Shown: positions 43,705 through 49,821 of the stretch, piece by piece
How the letters are laid out: every line of letters starts with the position of its first letter
How positions within the stretch are numbered: position 1 is the first letter of the stretch
Assembly: GCA_945904955.1 (NCBI GenBank)
Contig: CAMDPO010000002.1
Span: 62,001-126,000, forward strand
Length of the DNA: 64,000 nucleotides
DNA from: Rhizobium sp. Q54
Lineage (GTDB): Bacteria; Pseudomonadota; Alphaproteobacteria; UBA2966; CAIVPW01
Direction of reading: 5' to 3'
Notes under the pieces: generated by a model
The model's input: the letters and a program-made list of their open reading frames with translations, nothing else
Database searches by the model: none
What the model was told of the DNA's origin: nothing
Translations under genes and position numbers: made by a program

Positions 43705-43950
43705 ATGGCCCGCGACGCACCCCACCTCGCCCCTCTGTACGACTTCCGTGTCGAAGACCTGTGCCAGTGGCACATCGTCGAAGCGATCTGCTTCCGCTGC
43801 CGGCGCACGGCCGAGGTGCGCCACGACGCGATCACCCGCGGCGTGCGCGGCACCGAGCGCCTCACCAACCTGTTCCGCAAGCTCAAGTGCACGAACTGCG
43901 GCAACCGGGAGGACAACCGGTTGGCGGTAAGGTTGATGAGTAGGAATTGA
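43705..43950 (+). CDS. Small zinc-ribbon-like protein, 81 residues
   Basis: An 81-residue protein with two CxxC pairs: CFRC at about residue 29 and CTNC at about 62. The spacing of about 30 residues fits a zinc ribbon. ARG- and Leu-rich helices lie between them. No DNA-binding or enzymatic family is recognised. The stop codon is immediately followed by the tRNA-like sequence at 43951. Confidence 0.65.
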   Translation: MARDAPHLAPLYDFRVEDLCQWHIVEAICFRCRRTAEVRHDAITRGVRGTERLTNLFRKLKCTNCGNREDNRLAVRLMSRN

Positions 43951-43978
43951 CGCAGGTCCAAATTCGGTCCCGCAACCA
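43951..43978 (+). other. Degenerate copy of a tRNA-fMet 3' end, possible attachment-site remnant
   Basis: CGCAGGTCCAAATTCGGTCC, followed by CGCAACCA, matches the 3' end of alphaproteobacterial initiator tRNA (CGCAGGTTCAAATCCTG..., ending CCCGCAACCA) except for about five changes and one missing base. The first 9 and last 10 positions match exactly, and the T stem no longer pairs. The rest of the tRNA is absent. Integrative elements commonly leave such 3' tRNA segments at their ends. It sits at the left edge of the accessory stretch. Confidence 0.5.
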
Positions 43979-44240
43979 ATGCCCGCCAACGCTTTGGGCT
44001 GGCGGTGCTTTTCGTCCTACGCATAGGTATATGGTTGCAGGCCCTAGTGTACGATAGGGTGCGGCACACAATATCTGGTGTGTGCGGCCCTCCGTGCCTG
44101 AACCAAGCACCGCACTGCCTGATTTCGACTCGCTCCCGCCGAATGAGAAGCGTCGATCACAATCGGGAAACTGCGTTGAGACACGCTGAAGACTCGGGGC
44201 CCGTCTCCTCGTTGGGACCGCGCGAAGCGGCGCCCTAGTC
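43979..44240. other. Intergenic stretch with hairpin
   Basis: Contains the hairpin CCGCCA (43983-43988)/TGGCGG (44000-44005) followed by TGCTTTTC, a plausible terminator of the zinc-ribbon gene. The rest, including an AT-richer segment at 44015-44085, has no gene but may hold the promoter of the pentapeptide-repeat gene. Confidence 0.5.
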
Positions 44241-45518
44241 ATGCCCTGCTCGTTCAAGCTCAAGCGCCCCTGGCCCTACGAGCATCTCGGAGAAGGTTGT
44301 CAGTTCGGCGACATCGAACTCGAAACGTGGGAAGGCCGACAGTGGTGCAGCTTTCACCTTCCGCTAGTGGCGCAGCGCCAATCGATTGGCGATGCGGACG
44401 GCGACGCCGAGCTTCGGCAAGGAAGGCGCGACGGGCTACACAACTGGATTTCACGCCAACGAGAGGTTACGGGACGAACAATTGACCTATCCGGCGTTCA
44501 GGTCTTCGACGACATAGACCTTAGCGGAATCAATCCCTTTGAACCTCTATGTGCGGCGGGGGCTCATTTCGGTGAACGCGTGAAGTTCGACGGAGTCGCG
44601 TTCGGATCCAGTACATCCTTCGTTGCGGCGGAGTTCGACAACGGTTGCACTTTCAAGCATTGCCGCTTCGGCGTGGAATCGAAGTTCGATCGCGCTGTCT
44701 TTCACGCGCCAGATTTCTATGGTGCGATATTCAACGATAGCGTCGTTCTCCGCGACGCAACCTTCGTTTCCGCAGATTTTACAAGCGCGCAGTTCGGCGA
44801 CTGGTGCGAATTCGCGGGGTCGAGATTCTCGACATACGTGGGTTTTCGTGGCGCTGCCTTCGCGGCAGTCCATTTCGACGCCGTTCAATTCGAGGGGCTC
44901 GCCGATTTCACGAACGCGCACTTCGATAGCACCGCGAATTTTCGCGCGGCGGTCTTCGGGGCGGCGCCCTCATTTCATGGCTGCAAGCTTCACGCGGACA
45001 TTACATTTCCGGACGAGCGAGGGTTTCCGGACACCAGGGGCACCAACGCAGCGGGCGCTTACCGTGTGCTGAAGAAGGGTATGGAGGAGCTGCGGGCGCA
45101 TGAAGAGCAAGCTCTGTTCCATGCCCTCGAACAGCGTAGCCGGCGCCACCAACGCCCCTGGTACGATATTTCGCGCGTTGTTTCGGCCGCTTACGACAAG
45201 GCAGGGCGCTACGGACAGAGTTTCGTCCTACCGCTAGCTTGGATCGGTGCGACGTTTGCGTCGTTCTCTTGGCTGTTGGTTGTGCGGACGGAAGTTGAGA
45301 GCAAGGCCTCGTTGCCGAGCGCGCCAGAAGTAGCCGAAGCACTGTTGATTGTGCTCCGTCAGACATTTCGGCCCTTCGAAATACTGGGTCGAACGACCGT
45401 GGCCTCTGACGCTTACCCGTTCTGGCTGCAGTTGGTCGGTGTCACCTATAGCCTCGCGATTCTGAGCCTTTTTGCGTTGTTCCTCGTCGCCCTTCGACGC
45501 CGCTTCAAGCTCGACTAG
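44241..45518 (+). CDS. Pentapeptide-repeat-like membrane protein
   Basis: A 425-residue protein. Residues about 80-270 are a run of imperfect five-residue repeats of the A(D/N)LXX type in variant form (FDGVAF, FVAAEF, FKHCRF, FDRAVF, FYGAIF, FTSAQF, FRGAAF, FDAVQF), predicted to fold as a right-handed quadrilateral beta helix. A helical segment follows (about 285-330), then two transmembrane helices (FVLPLAWIGATFASFSWLL and VGVTYSLAILSLFALFLVAL). The function is unknown. GC content and codon use appear lower than in neighbours, suggesting transfer. No ribosome-binding site is obvious. Confidence 0.75.
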   Translation: MPCSFKLKRPWPYEHLGEGCQFGDIELETWEGRQWCSFHLPLVAQRQSIGDADGDAELRQGRRDGLHNWISRQREVTGRTIDLSGVQVFDDIDLSGINPFEPLCAAGAHFGERVKFDGVAFGSSTSFVAAEFDNGCTFKHCRFGVESKFDRAVFHAPDFYGAIFNDSVVLRDATFVSADFTSAQFGDWCEFAGSRFSTYVGFRGAAFAAVHFDAVQFEGLADFTNAHFDSTANFRAAVFGAAPSFHGCKLHADITFPDERGFPDTRGTNAAGAYRVLKKGMEELRAHEEQALFHALEQRSRRHQRPWYDISRVVSAAYDKAGRYGQSFVLPLAWIGATFASFSWLLVVRTEVESKASLPSAPEVAEALLIVLRQTFRPFEILGRTTVASDAYPFWLQLVGVTYSLAILSLFALFLVALRRRFKLD

Positions 45519-45830
45519 GCCCGATCGCAGCAGGCGTTGTGGCGGACCTGCCTAGGCCTGTAACCAGACCCGAGCCGAACCGACGACTGCGCCTGCACCG
45601 TGTCCGGCCGGGCCGCGGAGCCCACGCTGCGGCGCAATGTGATTCTCGCCAAACAAGTTTTGGGATAGTAGACCGTCGTTGTGGAGTGGCGCCGCCACAA
45701 GCGGCGGCGTGCTCCACTGCGTATTTCCACATCGTCCCCTGCTGAAGCTGGAAAGCACGCGAGGGATGGACAACTCTCATCGAGTACAGCGCGCCAATCC
45801 GAACCTCCGACAGAACGAGGACGTAACATC
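45519..45830. other. Intergenic stretch with a strong hairpin
   Basis: About 310 bp without a credible gene. GTGGAG (45681-45686) and CTCCAC (45712-45717) enclose a second stem CGCCGCC (45690-45696)/GGCGGCG (45703-45709), forming a strong two-part hairpin about 110 bp before the MFS remnant. No terminator U-tract follows. Confidence 0.5.
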
Positions 45831-46040
45831 GTGACTCAGGAAACCACTTTGGATTCAGCGCCAGAGGCAGTCGCGGAGCAACTGAGTCCGGCGCACAAGA
45901 GCCTCGTCATCAACGTGCTGTTGGTCTCGACGTTCGTCGTGATGCTCAATGAGACGGCGATGGTCGTCGCCATTCCAAGTCTGATGACGGCGCTCGGCGT
46001 CGATGCAAACGCGGCGCAGTGGCTCACGGCCGCGTTTCTC
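45831..46040 (+). pseudogene. Truncated MFS (DHA2-type) transporter
   Basis: From GTG 45831 (GAGG 10 nt upstream) the product begins with an N-terminal extension and then one transmembrane helix (VINVLLVSTFVVMLNETAM), followed by VVAIPSLMTALGVDANAAQWLTAAFL, the start of a DHA2-type multidrug transporter. After that residue the frame runs into antisense sequence of the redoxin gene. The remaining about 12 helices are absent, so a deletion joined the transporter's 5' end to the redoxin's 3' end near 46040. Confidence 0.8.
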
Positions 46041-46578
46041 ACGCGCCCCCATCTGCTGGCAGCGGACGGACGTCTTCGTCACAATCCGAGGCGGCGCTCT
46101 TGGAGTGGCCCGGCTCGCTGACAAGCGACTGTATCGCCGCGCCGAGGCGCAGATCGTCAAGATGGCCAAATTTCTGCAGGCAAAGCCTGCCCGCCCGATC
46201 GATCAGAATAGTCGTCGGCGTGCCCTGCATCTGATAGGCGCGCATGGTTTGCGGAACGCCCTGGTCCGACTGTGCGTCGATGCCGACCGGGAAATCGATC
46301 CGGTACTCGTGCAGAAAGGCAGCAAGCGCCTGGGGGGTGCCTTGCGCTTCATGATGCTCGAACACGGTGTGCAGGCCAACGACGGCGAGGTCTTCCGGAG
46401 AGAAAGCGGCGCGTGCGCGTTGCGCCTGCGGCAGGCCGTGGCTGACGCAGCCCGGGCACAGCATCTGGAAGGCGACCGCTAAGACCGTCCTCCCACGCAA
46501 GCTTTCCAGCGACGGCGGTGACGGCGTGTTCAGCCAATGCGCCATGCGCCACTCTGGCGCCGGACGAAATGCGGCCAT
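46039..46578 (-). CDS. Thioredoxin-fold redoxin (AhpC/TSA-like)
   Basis: A 179-residue thioredoxin-like protein. AVAFQMLCPGCVSHGLPQA holds a CxxC redox motif (Cys-Pro-Gly-Cys). DLAVVGLHTVFEHHEAQ and QGTPTTILIDRAG, with cis-Pro in GTPT, complete the fold. It may reduce peroxides or disulfides. The C-terminal 15 residues (from SDCDEDV) run into the MFS breakpoint, so the native end may have changed. The start ATG overlaps the stop of protoglobin (ATGA). Confidence 0.85.
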   Translation of the reverse strand: MAAFRPAPEWRMAHWLNTPSPPSLESLRGRTVLAVAFQMLCPGCVSHGLPQAQRARAAFSPEDLAVVGLHTVFEHHEAQGTPQALAAFLHEYRIDFPVGIDAQSDQGVPQTMRAYQMQGTPTTILIDRAGRLCLQKFGHLDDLRLGAAIQSLVSEPGHSKSAASDCDEDVRPLPADGGA

Positions 46579-47165
46579 CAGAAGTCCCCGTCTTTGGCGT
46601 AGGGTCGCGCCCAGAGAATCGCTTGCAGCCAGACGGACTTCGTCCAGGCGGCGTGCATGGCCTCCACATCGCCCGCGTTGGCGCCCGACTTGGCGAGGAA
46701 CGGCTTCATCGTTACGGAGATCGGGATAGCGAGCGCCAAGAGTTGGCTCATCGGGATGTGCGCTGCGGCGATGACCCTATCGGTCTTGTTCTTGCCGATT
46801 CGGTGATGCCGCTTGCCGATCTCTTCCTGATAGGCGAGCCAGGCGCCGTCGTAATTTGCGCGGCAGGTATCGAGGATCCACTGGCCGAAGCGCTTGCGAA
46901 CGCCGTCGAGATATGGGCCCACCGGCGTGCCGGTCTTGGGATCGGAGAAGTAGCGGAGCAGATGCGGATTGCCGCCAACAAAGCCGTACCAGACATCCAA
47001 GATCGCCTCGACCTGTGGCGTCAGCAGATCATGGGCCCGTTTCAGGGACGCCACGTCGCTCGGCCCGAACAGAAGCGAGGCCTTGAGCTCCTCGAATTGC
47101 GCCGCCGAAACTGGCGAGGCGGGCAGTGTGGGATCGCCGAGGCGATAGCCGGGAATAGAGGTCAC
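46578..47165 (-). CDS. Protoglobin
   Basis: A 195-residue single-domain haem protein of the protoglobin family. It begins VTSIPGYRLGDPT; the core includes LLTPQVEAILDVWYGFVGGNPHLL and the His-containing EEIGKRHHRIGKNKTDR region, where the proximal haem His is expected. C-terminal helices follow. Protoglobins bind O2, CO and NO and act as sensors or detoxifiers. GTG 47165 is chosen because GAGGAG lies upstream and homology begins there. It is divergent from the MarR gene, with an operator between. Confidence 0.9.
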   Translation of the reverse strand: MTSIPGYRLGDPTLPASPVSAAQFEELKASLLFGPSDVASLKRAHDLLTPQVEAILDVWYGFVGGNPHLLRYFSDPKTGTPVGPYLDGVRKRFGQWILDTCRANYDGAWLAYQEEIGKRHHRIGKNKTDRVIAAAHIPMSQLLALAIPISVTMKPFLAKSGANAGDVEAMHAAWTKSVWLQAILWARPYAKDGDF

Positions 47166-47200
47166 GATGGTCTCCTCGCGAAACCTGTGAAAGCGCGATA

Positions 47201-47215
47201 ATATCGACTCGATAT
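47201..47215. promoter_or_regulatory. Palindromic operator between protoglobin and MarR genes
   Basis: ATATCGA-C-TCGATAT is a perfect 15-bp palindrome in the 53-bp space between the divergent genes, ending 3 bp before the ATG of the MarR gene. It fits a MarR-family operator controlling both directions. Binding is inferred. Confidence 0.8.
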
Positions 47216-47218
47216 CAA

Positions 47219-47830
47219 ATGGCCGTGTCACTTTCAATGAAAAAGAGCGACTCGCTACCATCTTCCGCGGCCCTCCAGGCCGCCCACCTGATTGAACGGC
47301 TGGGACGGGTCCTGCGTGCTGGCGATCACGCCACCGGGCTCAATCCCGTCCAGGCAGAGGCGCTGCGCTATCTGGGGCGGGCCAATCGCTTTTCGCGCAC
47401 GCCGGCGGCACTCGCCGATTTTCTTGGCTCCACGCGCGGGACCGTCTCGCAAACCCTGCTGGCGCTTGAGGCGAAGCGGCTGATAAGGCGCCAAGCCAAT
47501 GCCCGTGACGGCCGCTCCGTGACGTTGGCACTGACCAAAGCCGGCACGGAGTACCTGAAGTCAGACCCGGTGCGCACGCTCGCGGCGTCGATCGATGCAA
47601 GTGGTGCGGACGCGCGGCTCGCGGAATATCTGGGTGCCACCTTGCGCGAGGCAATTGTTCAGCGCGGCGGCCGCACCTTCGGCGCCTGCAACACCTGCCG
47701 CCATTTGCGGCGCGACCAATCTAGAGGCGCAGCGCCCCACTATTGCGCGCTTCTTCAAGAGCCTCTGAGCGACATCGACGTTTCGTCGATCTGCGCGGAA
47801 CAACAGGACGGCCCGCAGGTGCGCCCCTAG
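47219..47830 (+). CDS. MarR-family regulator with a C-terminal cysteine cluster
   Basis: A 203-residue winged-helix regulator. The wHTH spans about 40-120 (ADFLGSTRGTVSQTLLALEAKRLIRR and the wing ANARDGRSVTLALT). Beyond the MarR fold a 45-residue tail has Cys157 and Cys160 (GACNTCRHL), Cys176 (HYCALL) and Cys192 (SSICAEQ) plus His residues, suggesting a metal or redox-sensing site. It is divergent from protoglobin-redoxin with a palindrome between, so it probably represses or activates them in response to redox or NO stress. The start lacks an evident ribosome-binding site; a second ATG lies at 47237. Confidence 0.88.
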   Translation: MAVSLSMKKSDSLPSSAALQAAHLIERLGRVLRAGDHATGLNPVQAEALRYLGRANRFSRTPAALADFLGSTRGTVSQTLLALEAKRLIRRQANARDGRSVTLALTKAGTEYLKSDPVRTLAASIDASGADARLAEYLGATLREAIVQRGGRTFGACNTCRHLRRDQSRGAAPHYCALLQEPLSDIDVSSICAEQQDGPQVRP

Positions 47831-47833
47831 CGG

Positions 47834-48148
47834 CTAGCGCGTGTTCCGCTCTCGCGATGCCGGCGGCGCAAACGCCGCCAGTCCTTCGAGACAGCCGATC
47901 CACCCTCGTTGGTGCAACGCGCGGCTCTCGTCAGTCGTGATGTTCTCGTGCACGACGCTGACCTCGGTTCCCTCGGCGTGCGGCACGAAGCGCACGGTCA
48001 CGCGTTCGTTCGACGTGCCGTCGAGGCCGATGCGCCACGAATAGACCAGCATGTGCGGGGGCTCGATCCGCTCGAACTCGCCGACAATCCATACGAGGTG
48101 TCCGTCGGGCAGCCGGTTGGCGGCAACGCCTGCGCCGCGTCCACGCAC
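47834..48148 (-). pseudogene. N-terminally truncated SRPBCC/AHSA1-like gene
   Basis: The frame encodes the C-terminal two-thirds of an AHSA1-like SRPBCC protein: LVWIVGEFERIEPPHMLVYSW, NERVTVRFVPHAEGTEVSVVHENI and HQRGWIGCLEGLAAF. The normal N-terminal part (START-domain entry, VWRALTDPxLLxxWW) is missing; upstream residues are low-complexity and do not match. It is probably a remnant cut off during rearrangement, but expression of the truncated product cannot be excluded. Confidence 0.75.
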
Positions 48149-48259
48149 GGGAGCTCCCCCGCGCGTCTCCGGCGAGTGTCCCCGGCGTGCCGAAAAGGCC
48201 CCGCTGCTGGCGGCCAGCGCCCCGCGGGTTGGAAGCCTTGCTTTGCGCCGAAAATGTCG

Positions 48260-48275
48260 ATATGTCTGGACATAT
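48260..48275. promoter_or_regulatory. Palindromic operator at the arsR start
   Basis: ATATGTC-TG-GACATAT has two perfect 7-bp arms. It overlaps the proposed ATG of arsR by two bases, so ArsR binding would block its own translation start or promoter. It fits autoregulation of the ars operon. Confidence 0.75.
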
Positions 48276-48612
48276 GGATACTATGGTGGCGACCGAGGCG
48301 TTCGGCGCGTTGGCGCAGCCTACCCGGCTGGCGGTGTTCCGGCTGCTGATGGCGGCCGGGCCGGAGGGCATGGCGGCCGGAGCGGTCGCCGAGAAGCTCG
48401 GGGTGCCGCACAACACGTTGTCGACGCACCTCGGCATTCTTGCGCGGGCGCGGCTGCTGACATCGCGGCGCGAGGGGCGGTCGATCTTGTATGCGCCGGA
48501 TATCGAAGGCGTGCGGGCGCTGCTGAGCTTCCTGGTGGCGGATTGCTGCAACGGGCGGCCGGAGCTGTGCGCGCCGTTGGCGGCGGTCGTCGAGCGCGCG
48601 GCGTGCTGCTAG
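48274..48612 (+). CDS. arsR: Arsenic-responsive ArsR regulator
   Basis: A 112-residue winged-helix repressor: AQPTRLAVFRLLMAAGPEG, then PHNTLSTHLGILARARLL as recognition helix. The metalloid site is at the C-terminal end: Cys91-Cys92 and Cys99 in VADCCNGRPELC, the arrangement known from Acidithiobacillus-type ArsR, plus a Cys-Cys terminus. Arsenite or antimonite binding releases it from DNA. The start is uncertain: ATG 48262, 48274 or 48283; 48274 is given. Genes arsC and aquaporin follow. Confidence 0.9.
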   Translation: MDTMVATEAFGALAQPTRLAVFRLLMAAGPEGMAAGAVAEKLGVPHNTLSTHLGILARARLLTSRREGRSILYAPDIEGVRALLSFLVADCCNGRPELCAPLAAVVERAACC

Positions 48613-48616
48613 CGCC

Positions 48617-49126
48617 ATGACGTACGCCATGCCGCGCACGTTCCACGCGCTGTTCCTGTGCACCGGCAACTCGGCGCGCTCGATCCTGGCGGAGGCGATT
48701 CTCAACAGGCAAGGTCACGGGGCGTTCCGTGCGTACTCGGCGGGGAGCTTTCCCAAAGGCACGGTCCACCCGCAGGCGCTGGCGCTGCTCAACAGCCTGC
48801 AGTTCGACACGAGTGGGTTCCGCTCGAAGAGCTGGAACGAGTTCTCCGGGCGCGATGCGCCGGTGCTCGACTTCGTGTTCACGGTTTGCGACAACGCGGC
48901 CAACGAGGTGTGCCCGGTGTGGCCGGGGCAGCCGATGACGGCGCATTGGGGTGTGCCGGATCCGGCCGCGGTCGTGGGGAGCCCGGCGGAGGTGGGGGCG
49001 GCGTTCGCGGACACGTACCGGATGCTGCACAACCGGATCGCGGTGTTCACCAGCCTGCCCTTCGACAAGCTCAACCGCCTGTCGCTGACCGCGAAGCTGC
49101 GCGACATCGGCGCGATGCGCACGTGA
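48617..49126 (+). CDS. arsC: Arsenate reductase, low-molecular-weight phosphatase type
   Basis: A 169-residue protein of the LMW-PTP-like arsenate reductase family. The P-loop LFLCTGNSARS contains the nucleophilic Cys. SAGSFPKGTVHPQA and TVCDNAANEVCPVWPG hold the further cysteines needed for thioredoxin-coupled turnover. It reduces arsenate to arsenite. The start at ATG 48617 lies 4 nt after arsR; ATG 48629 is an alternative. Its stop overlaps the aquaporin GTG (GTGA). Confidence 0.92.
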   Translation: MTYAMPRTFHALFLCTGNSARSILAEAILNRQGHGAFRAYSAGSFPKGTVHPQALALLNSLQFDTSGFRSKSWNEFSGRDAPVLDFVFTVCDNAANEVCPVWPGQPMTAHWGVPDPAAVVGSPAEVGAAFADTYRMLHNRIAVFTSLPFDKLNRLSLTAKLRDIGAMRT

Positions 49127-49821
49127 GCGGCGTGCCGCTGGCGCGCGCGCTCGCGGCGGAAGCGTTGGGGACGGCGCTGCTGGTCGCGGCCGTGATCGGC
49201 TCGGGCATCATGGGCGAGCGGCTGGCGGGCGGGAACGATGCGGTCGCGCTGCTTGCCAATACCGGCGCGACGGCCGCGGCGCTGTACGTGCTGATTACGC
49301 TGTTCGCGCCGCTGTCGGGGGCGCACTTCAATCCGGTTGTCACGGTCGTGCTGTGGGCGCGCGGGGACGTCGCGGCGCGTACGGTCGTGCCGTATGCGGC
49401 GGCGCAAGTCGCCGGTGCGGTGGCGGGCGCGGTGACGGCGAACGCGATGTTCGCGCTGCCGCTGGTGGCGGCGGCGGCGACGGCGCGGTCGGGGGCGGCG
49501 CTGTGGCTGTCCGAGATCGTGGCGACATCTCTGCTGGTGCTGGTGATCCTCGGATTGAGCAAGGCGCGGCCGGCGGCGGTTCCCGCCGGCGTCGCGCTGA
49601 CCATCGCGGCGGCCTACTGGTTCACGGCGTCGACCTCGTTCGCCAATCCGGCGGTGACGCTGGCGCGCAGCTTGTCCGACACGTTCGCGGGCATCGATCC
49701 GCGCCACGTGCCGGCGTTCGTGGTGGCGCAGGCGGTGGGCGGCGCGCTGGCGCTCGGCGCGGCGAACCTTTTGTTCGGGCGCGCGCGGGCGGCGGCGGCT
49801 GCTCTGCCTCGCGTCCCCTGA
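49123..49821 (+). CDS. MIP-family aquaporin/aquaglyceroporin (AqpS-like)
   Basis: A 232-residue channel with six predicted helices. The two half-helix motifs are NPV in GAHFNPVVTV and NPA in FANPAVTLARSL. In the known arsenic operon of Sinorhizobium meliloti an aquaglyceroporin (AqpS) lets arsenite leave the cell after ArsC reduction, replacing the ArsB pump. Placement directly behind arsR-arsC, by overlapping GTGA, supports that role here. Translation from GTG 49123 is inferred from the overlap. Confidence 0.85.
   Translation: MSGVPLARALAAEALGTALLVAAVIGSGIMGERLAGGNDAVALLANTGATAAALYVLITLFAPLSGAHFNPVVTVVLWARGDVAARTVVPYAAAQVAGAVAGAVTANAMFALPLVAAAATARSGAALWLSEIVATSLLVLVILGLSKARPAAVPAGVALTIAAAYWFTASTSFANPAVTLARSLSDTFAGIDPRHVPAFVVAQAVGGALALGAANLLFGRARAAAAALPRVP

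Follow-up and report, generated by a model that had tools for sequence, protein, structure and literature searches.

Several described regulators resemble in part the MarR-type protein with a four-cysteine tail, here called MarR-C4, that we analysed in Rhizobium sp. Q54. ArnR of Corynebacterium, like MarR-C4, has a winged-helix N-terminus reminiscent of MarR followed by a C-terminal cysteine domain, which is sensory in ArnR, and it represses the globin gene hmp until released by NO, a role similar to the one we propose for MarR-C4 (PMC12343034). ArnR is an actinobacterial protein with three cysteines (179, 193 and 223), no CxxC pair and a proven [4Fe-4S] cluster, whereas MarR-C4 has four cysteines and a predicted cofactor; we set the two apart from the published description, by cysteine number and spacing. 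The thiol-based MarR proteins OhrR, RosR and CosR are autorepressors that control redox-stress genes, as MarR-C4 may be, but they carry single or paired cysteines and have no separate tetracysteine domain (PMC8524982 and general knowledge). The Rrf2/NsrR sensors of NO control haem NO-detoxification genes and are comparable in proposed signal and Fe-S chemistry, but their DNA-binding family differs, and the Pfam scan gave no match of the Rrf2 DNA-binding profile in MarR-C4. CioR of Chromobacterium violaceum is likewise an autorepressor of the MarR family, and the haem protein operon under its control gives protection against NO, but CioR is of the GbsR type, controls cytochrome bd and is induced by cyanide and not by the other stressors tested (PMC11837568). 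On the effector side, the protoglobin of Methanosarcina acetivorans (2veb), which acts in vitro as a nitrite reductase and a peroxynitrite isomerase (PMC4020757), is homologous over its full length to the protoglobin studied here and has the same haem-pocket residues; the latter differs in that its operon is bacterial and also encodes a redoxin, and in having a repressor that is probably its own. We found no description of a MarR protein of the four-cysteine-tail kind in the open-licence literature.

The divergent genes and their candidate operators

Coordinates are positions within the window, the 64,000-nt stretch of contig CAMDPO010000002.1 that was analysed (Table 1). The initial annotation had described a haem protein coupled to a CxxC redoxin, and this is borne out, with the open reading frames as it gave them. 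The first protein matches PF11563 at 106.6 bits in a Pfam scan (cut-off 25), has the length of a single domain and, among solved structures, aligns end to end with 2veb (E 2.3e-55), its Trp-Tyr distal pair and proximal His121 falling on W60, Y61 and H120 of the M. acetivorans protein. Haem binding and gas ligation are predicted. The redoxin is nearest to SPOA0173 (E 7.3e-52), with the CxxC active site aligned; in the Pfam scan it reaches 26.4 bits with PF00578 (AhpC-TSA, cut-off 26) and falls slightly under the cut-off of PF08534, and no signal peptide was apparent on inspection by eye. The TGATG overlap is kept in all five relatives checked (L107, L111, L121, L124 and L118), which suggests translational coupling of the two genes. 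A fragment from the 5’ part of an MFS transporter gene (45831-46045) ends abruptly where the redoxin gene has its 3’ end, marking a rearrangement junction. Truncation of the redoxin by this adjoining fragment was rejected, because the alignment with L107 spans residues 1-179.

Table 1. Features of the MarR-C4/protoglobin locus in the window
Feature	Position	Strand	Details	Basis
Redoxin	46039..46578	-	thioredoxin fold, 179 aa, CPGC motif	homolog of SPOA0173 (3eyt)
TGATG overlap	46576..46580	-	protoglobin stop and redoxin start, one base in common	ORF reading
Protoglobin	46578..47168	-	single domain, 196 aa, GTG start at 47168	PF11563 profile; 2veb alignment
Operator O2 (candidate)	47200..47217		AATATCGACTCGATATCA; palindrome 47201-47215	overlaps inferred -10 of protoglobin promoter
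Protoglobin promoter (inferred)	47209..47237	-	TTGAAA - 17 nt - TATCGA	by reading; relatives with TTGACG/TTGACA
MarR-C4 repressor (predicted)	47237..47830	+	197 aa	PF12802; start from relatives; AF2; MepR-like fold
Operator O1 (candidate)	47243..47260		AAGAGCGACTCGCTACCA; within first MarR codons	43 bp from O2
Tetracysteine tail	47678..47812	+	FGxC-x2-C-x15-C-x15-C	invariant in 44 aligned proteins, 26 tail sequences; AF2
Codons of Cys151, 154, 170, 186	47687, 47696, 47744, 47792 (starts)	+		

Globin-coupled sensors are relatives of the protoglobins (PMC4020757), and from this kinship the protein could be a sensor of O2, CO or NO, passing its signal on through the redoxin or the MarR protein, and not a detoxifying enzyme. 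We consider this very improbable, since the protein consists of one domain and lacks an output domain, and its gene lies downstream of the operator that MarR-C4 would control, which is the layout of an effector gene.

The regulator matches PF12802 (MarR_2) at 46.5 bits in the Pfam scan (cut-off 27). Its start appears better placed at 47237 than at the ATG at 47219 chosen in the initial annotation, which lies 4 bases past the palindrome, because translation from 47237 opens with MKKSDSLP and relatives open with MKKSDSLP or MKKSESLP; the codons between the two ATGs show no conservation among the relatives. The divergent orientation and the four-cysteine tail described earlier stand, and with the start moved the tail cysteines are no longer residues 157, 160, 176 and 192 but those of Table 1.

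The perfect palindrome reported between the genes is real, but it is not alone, being part of one of two related candidate operators. O1 and O2 are 78% identical, and a repeat finder returns them as an 18-nt direct repeat with a spacing of 43. O2 would cover the -10 element of the protoglobin promoter as we read it; a consensus promoter scan called nothing, this promoter included. In the intergenic regions of related loci there are two dyads, in most cases separated by 43-50 bp, and they are of the types TATCGAsTCGATA, TAGCGAsTCGCTA or TTGCTAsTAGCAA. The best site scores at least 11/13 in 26 of 26 homologous regions versus 1.2% of Markov-shuffled controls and the second at least 9/13 in 25 of 26 versus 10%, a contrast that is an upper estimate because the reference sites were taken from the same loci. 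Two checks are independent of that choice. The same dyads precede MarR-C4 genes that stand without protoglobin, among them those of Phaeobacter and Enterobacter, and also the one in Agarilytica, where protoglobin is present. In a genome scan the exact operator 13-mer occurs once in the 2.38-Mb genome, at the MarR/protoglobin locus; in 13 other genomes it has ten sites, spread over nine of them; eight of the ten sites are at a MarR-C4 locus, which makes 8 of the 13 genomes with such a site, and a reversed control pattern has 0 matches in the same 13. As the exact operator is unique in the genome, the regulon looks local, and the site distribution supports local regulation by MarR-C4 well. The divergent protoglobin-redoxin operon is very probably under its control, and the phylogenetic footprint lends good support to the putative repression of both genes from O1 and O2.

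Recurrence of the module and its neighbours

From a genome scan with the protoglobin as query we took the best 80 loci, comprising the 33 closest (at least 61% identity), nearly all from Alphaproteobacteria, and 47 that are more distant. MarR-C4 stands beside the protoglobin on the opposite strand in 33 of the 33 closest loci, though separated from it by a single gene or gene remnant in three (L114, L122 and L123), and in 22 a redoxin comes after the protoglobin. For the 47 more distant loci the numbers are 15 with MarR-C4 and 14 with the redoxin. The counts include one partly masked regulator gene (L128) and one that is interrupted or split (L129), each read separately, and some of the 80 loci are near-duplicates, so that the independent number is smaller. 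No other flanking genes are common to the alphaproteobacterial loci. Laboratory strains are among the natural carriers of the module, for instance a Mesorhizobium type strain (L124, L125 and L129). In Myxococcota and Acidobacteria the regulator is mostly upstream on the same strand and belongs to a second subfamily. Judged from gene order, MarR-C4, protoglobin and redoxin form a conserved module that recurs in many bacteria, and because of this conservation the hypothesis of the initial annotation is stronger than its author could know.

Nitrospira or Nitrospirae names are attached to 23 of the best 80 protoglobin loci. Nitrospira live with nitrite. Most of their protoglobins have neither the regulator nor the redoxin. 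By eye, many Nitrospira protoglobins (in L142-L183) lie downstream of a conserved acyl-CoA thioesterase-like gene, mostly without MarR-C4 or redoxin.

A phylum sample of 398 genomes contains about 38 full-length MarR-C4 matches, and 21 of the 30 loci examined (L064-L093) have at least one recurrent partner within about 4.5 kb, the recurrent partners being an SPOA0173-like redoxin, a glutaredoxin-like protein, HTHP, MOSC, DUF2024 and an exported protein of about 250 aa. The conserved partners are mostly redox and haem proteins. Four single cases point towards haem, Fe-S and reactive nitrogen: MarR-C4 lies directly downstream of cytochrome P460 on a Thermus plasmid (L031:4506-5522), next to the ferredoxin FdxA in Bradyrhizobium, next to an NUBPL-type Fe-S carrier in Octadecabacter and, in Hymenobacter, in a cluster with hmpA, Rrf2, catalase, HTHP and protoglobin. 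In many genomes MarR-C4 adjoins genes without an evident link to NO.

Two further observations concern these neighbourhoods. The exported family, with the motifs HPDFDDTPLFDENGDGD and WHSHWVVL, lies repeatedly beside MarR-C4, redoxin, HTHP or protoglobin; it occurs in Pseudomonadota and Bacteroidota (L022:3140-3907, L066:3370-4134, L068:3187-3924 and L100:2906-3637) and matches no Pfam or NCBIfam model. Alphaproteobacterial MarR-C4 genes are sometimes divergent from a gene for an RpoH-like sigma factor (L002, L003, L004, L028 and L065), and operator-like dyads are found in the promoters between them.

In a sister species with 87% identical flanks the segment from about 43950 to 48235 is replaced by other genes, and the regulator is absent from four congeners, so in this genome the cassette is an acquired or variable element. 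The replacing genes (for 43951-48235) appear by eye to be phosphoesterase-like, PstB-like and pyruvate-kinase-like. A genome search found neither a PF00042 globin or flavohaemoglobin nor NirK, so any NO would be exogenous or come from another enzyme. An AHSA1/SRPBCC protein that adjoins the MarR gene (47834-48148) has its N-terminal part missing (profile 40-122 of 125). Beyond it, at 48187-49821, an ArsR-type regulator, a low-molecular-weight phosphatase/arsenate reductase-like gene and an aquaporin-like channel, identified by eye, make up a probable arsenic operon. An Rfam search of the window returned only one tRNA.

The tetracysteine tail

The AlphaFold2 (AF2) model of the whole MarR-C4 chain, for which the alignment was built without rows from plasmid records, has a mean pLDDT of 90.8. 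The best structural match of its core in the PDB is MepR (probability 1.00), with the dimerisation helices included; MepR and the other matched MarR chains have about 125-165 residues, not enough to extend over the tail. Phenolic compounds or other small molecules are the ligands of classical MarR proteins. It could accordingly be argued that the tail is a structural Zn site only, that a small organic compound binds in the MarR pocket and is the substrate of the protoglobin as an enzyme, and that MOSC or the redoxin is auxiliary to its detoxification, and the ordinary MepR-like fold of the core is consistent with this. We regard this as unlikely, since conservation in the family is highest at the cysteines and the partners are redox proteins that belong to no single metabolic pathway.

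Only six columns are invariant in an alignment of 44 proteins that are about 40% alike on average, and four of them are the tail cysteines; the six hold after rows of the more distant second subfamily (RMCxSC type) are added. Across 26 tail sequences the pattern is FGxCxxC...C.L...PL......C.E. In the full-chain model the tail has a pLDDT of mostly 80-93; folded by itself without an alignment it reached 44, and that model was discarded. Searched against PDB sequences the tail gave nothing significant and no match to a solved Fe-S protein; a Pfam search with E values of up to 10 allowed returned nothing beyond weak and insignificant matches (DUF7140 and zinc-finger types). The cysteine spacing may resemble that of HiPIP-type [4Fe-4S] domains. 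We infer that the tail is a folded metal site, and an [Fe-S] centre is somewhat favoured over Zn, which is possible too because no solved Fe-S sequence was matched and the zinc-finger matches in Pfam were insignificant.

If the tail were instead Zn(Cys)4 or a thiol switch, oxidants, reactive chlorine or electrophiles would oxidise its thiolates, and the module would protect thiols and not remove NO. This explanation ranks second, close behind our main reading, and we hold it to be possible, short of probable. The CxxC pair in the tail, the weak zinc-finger-like profile matches and the thiol-repair partners (redoxin and glutaredoxin-like protein) are in its favour, as is the reported electrocatalytic activity of HTHP with peroxide (PMC4813847). 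Thiol stress alone would leave the haem gas-binding partners (protoglobin, Hmp and P460) unexplained, and Fe-S handling genes adjoin some members of the MarR-C4 family.

Proposed mechanism and its meaning

The reading that we tentatively prefer over the others is that of a local autorepressor with a metal centre in its tail, from which reactive nitrogen or oxygen species release the protoglobin and the redoxin. A MarR-C4 dimer would bind the dyads O1 and O2 and repress the MarR-C4 gene together with the protoglobin-redoxin operon, while the tetracysteine domain would hold a metal centre, more likely [Fe-S] than Zn. NO, nitrite-derived species, peroxynitrite and possibly peroxide may damage this centre, so that the repressor would leave the DNA and protoglobin and redoxin would be produced. 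By analogy with their relatives, the protoglobin may consume or isomerise the reactive species and the redoxin may repair oxidised or nitrosated thiols; with the stress over, the centre would be rebuilt and repression restored.

This preferred reading draws on the divergent order kept in all close and 15 of the distant loci without other common flanks, the invariance of the four cysteines in proteins otherwise so divergent, the confidently modelled tail, and an operator pair kept across the family, members without protoglobin included, whose exact site is unique in the genome. The recurrent partners and the four single cases, the share of Nitrospira among the protoglobin loci, the in vitro activities of the M. 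acetivorans protein and the precedent of ArnR also count for it. Against it stand the failure of the tail to match a solved Fe-S protein, the many genomes in which the neighbours of MarR-C4 have no NO link, the Nitrospira protoglobins that lack regulator and redoxin, and the absence of NirK and flavohaemoglobin from the host genome. The gas/redox-stress module suggested at the outset is upheld as regards the operon, the divergent MarR protein very probably regulating it, the conserved operator, the invariant tail and the redox and haem partners.

More broadly, and with greater reserve, we propose that MarR-C4 may be a widespread undescribed class of MarR proteins whose tail carries an [Fe-S] centre sensing NO or related species, and that the cassette may be a mobile unit of reactive-nitrogen defence. 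MarR-C4 points to a MarR family that spans several phyla and has an uncharacterised sensor domain; its single operator motif can be used to find its targets. The physiological role of protoglobins is unsettled and the family is poorly understood. The module, in which the redoxin is coupled and a dedicated repressor combines a domain that probably senses through a metal with an exact operator, makes that role directly testable by genetics and, if true, a reactive-nitrogen cassette would assign to bacterial protoglobins a first clear role in physiology.
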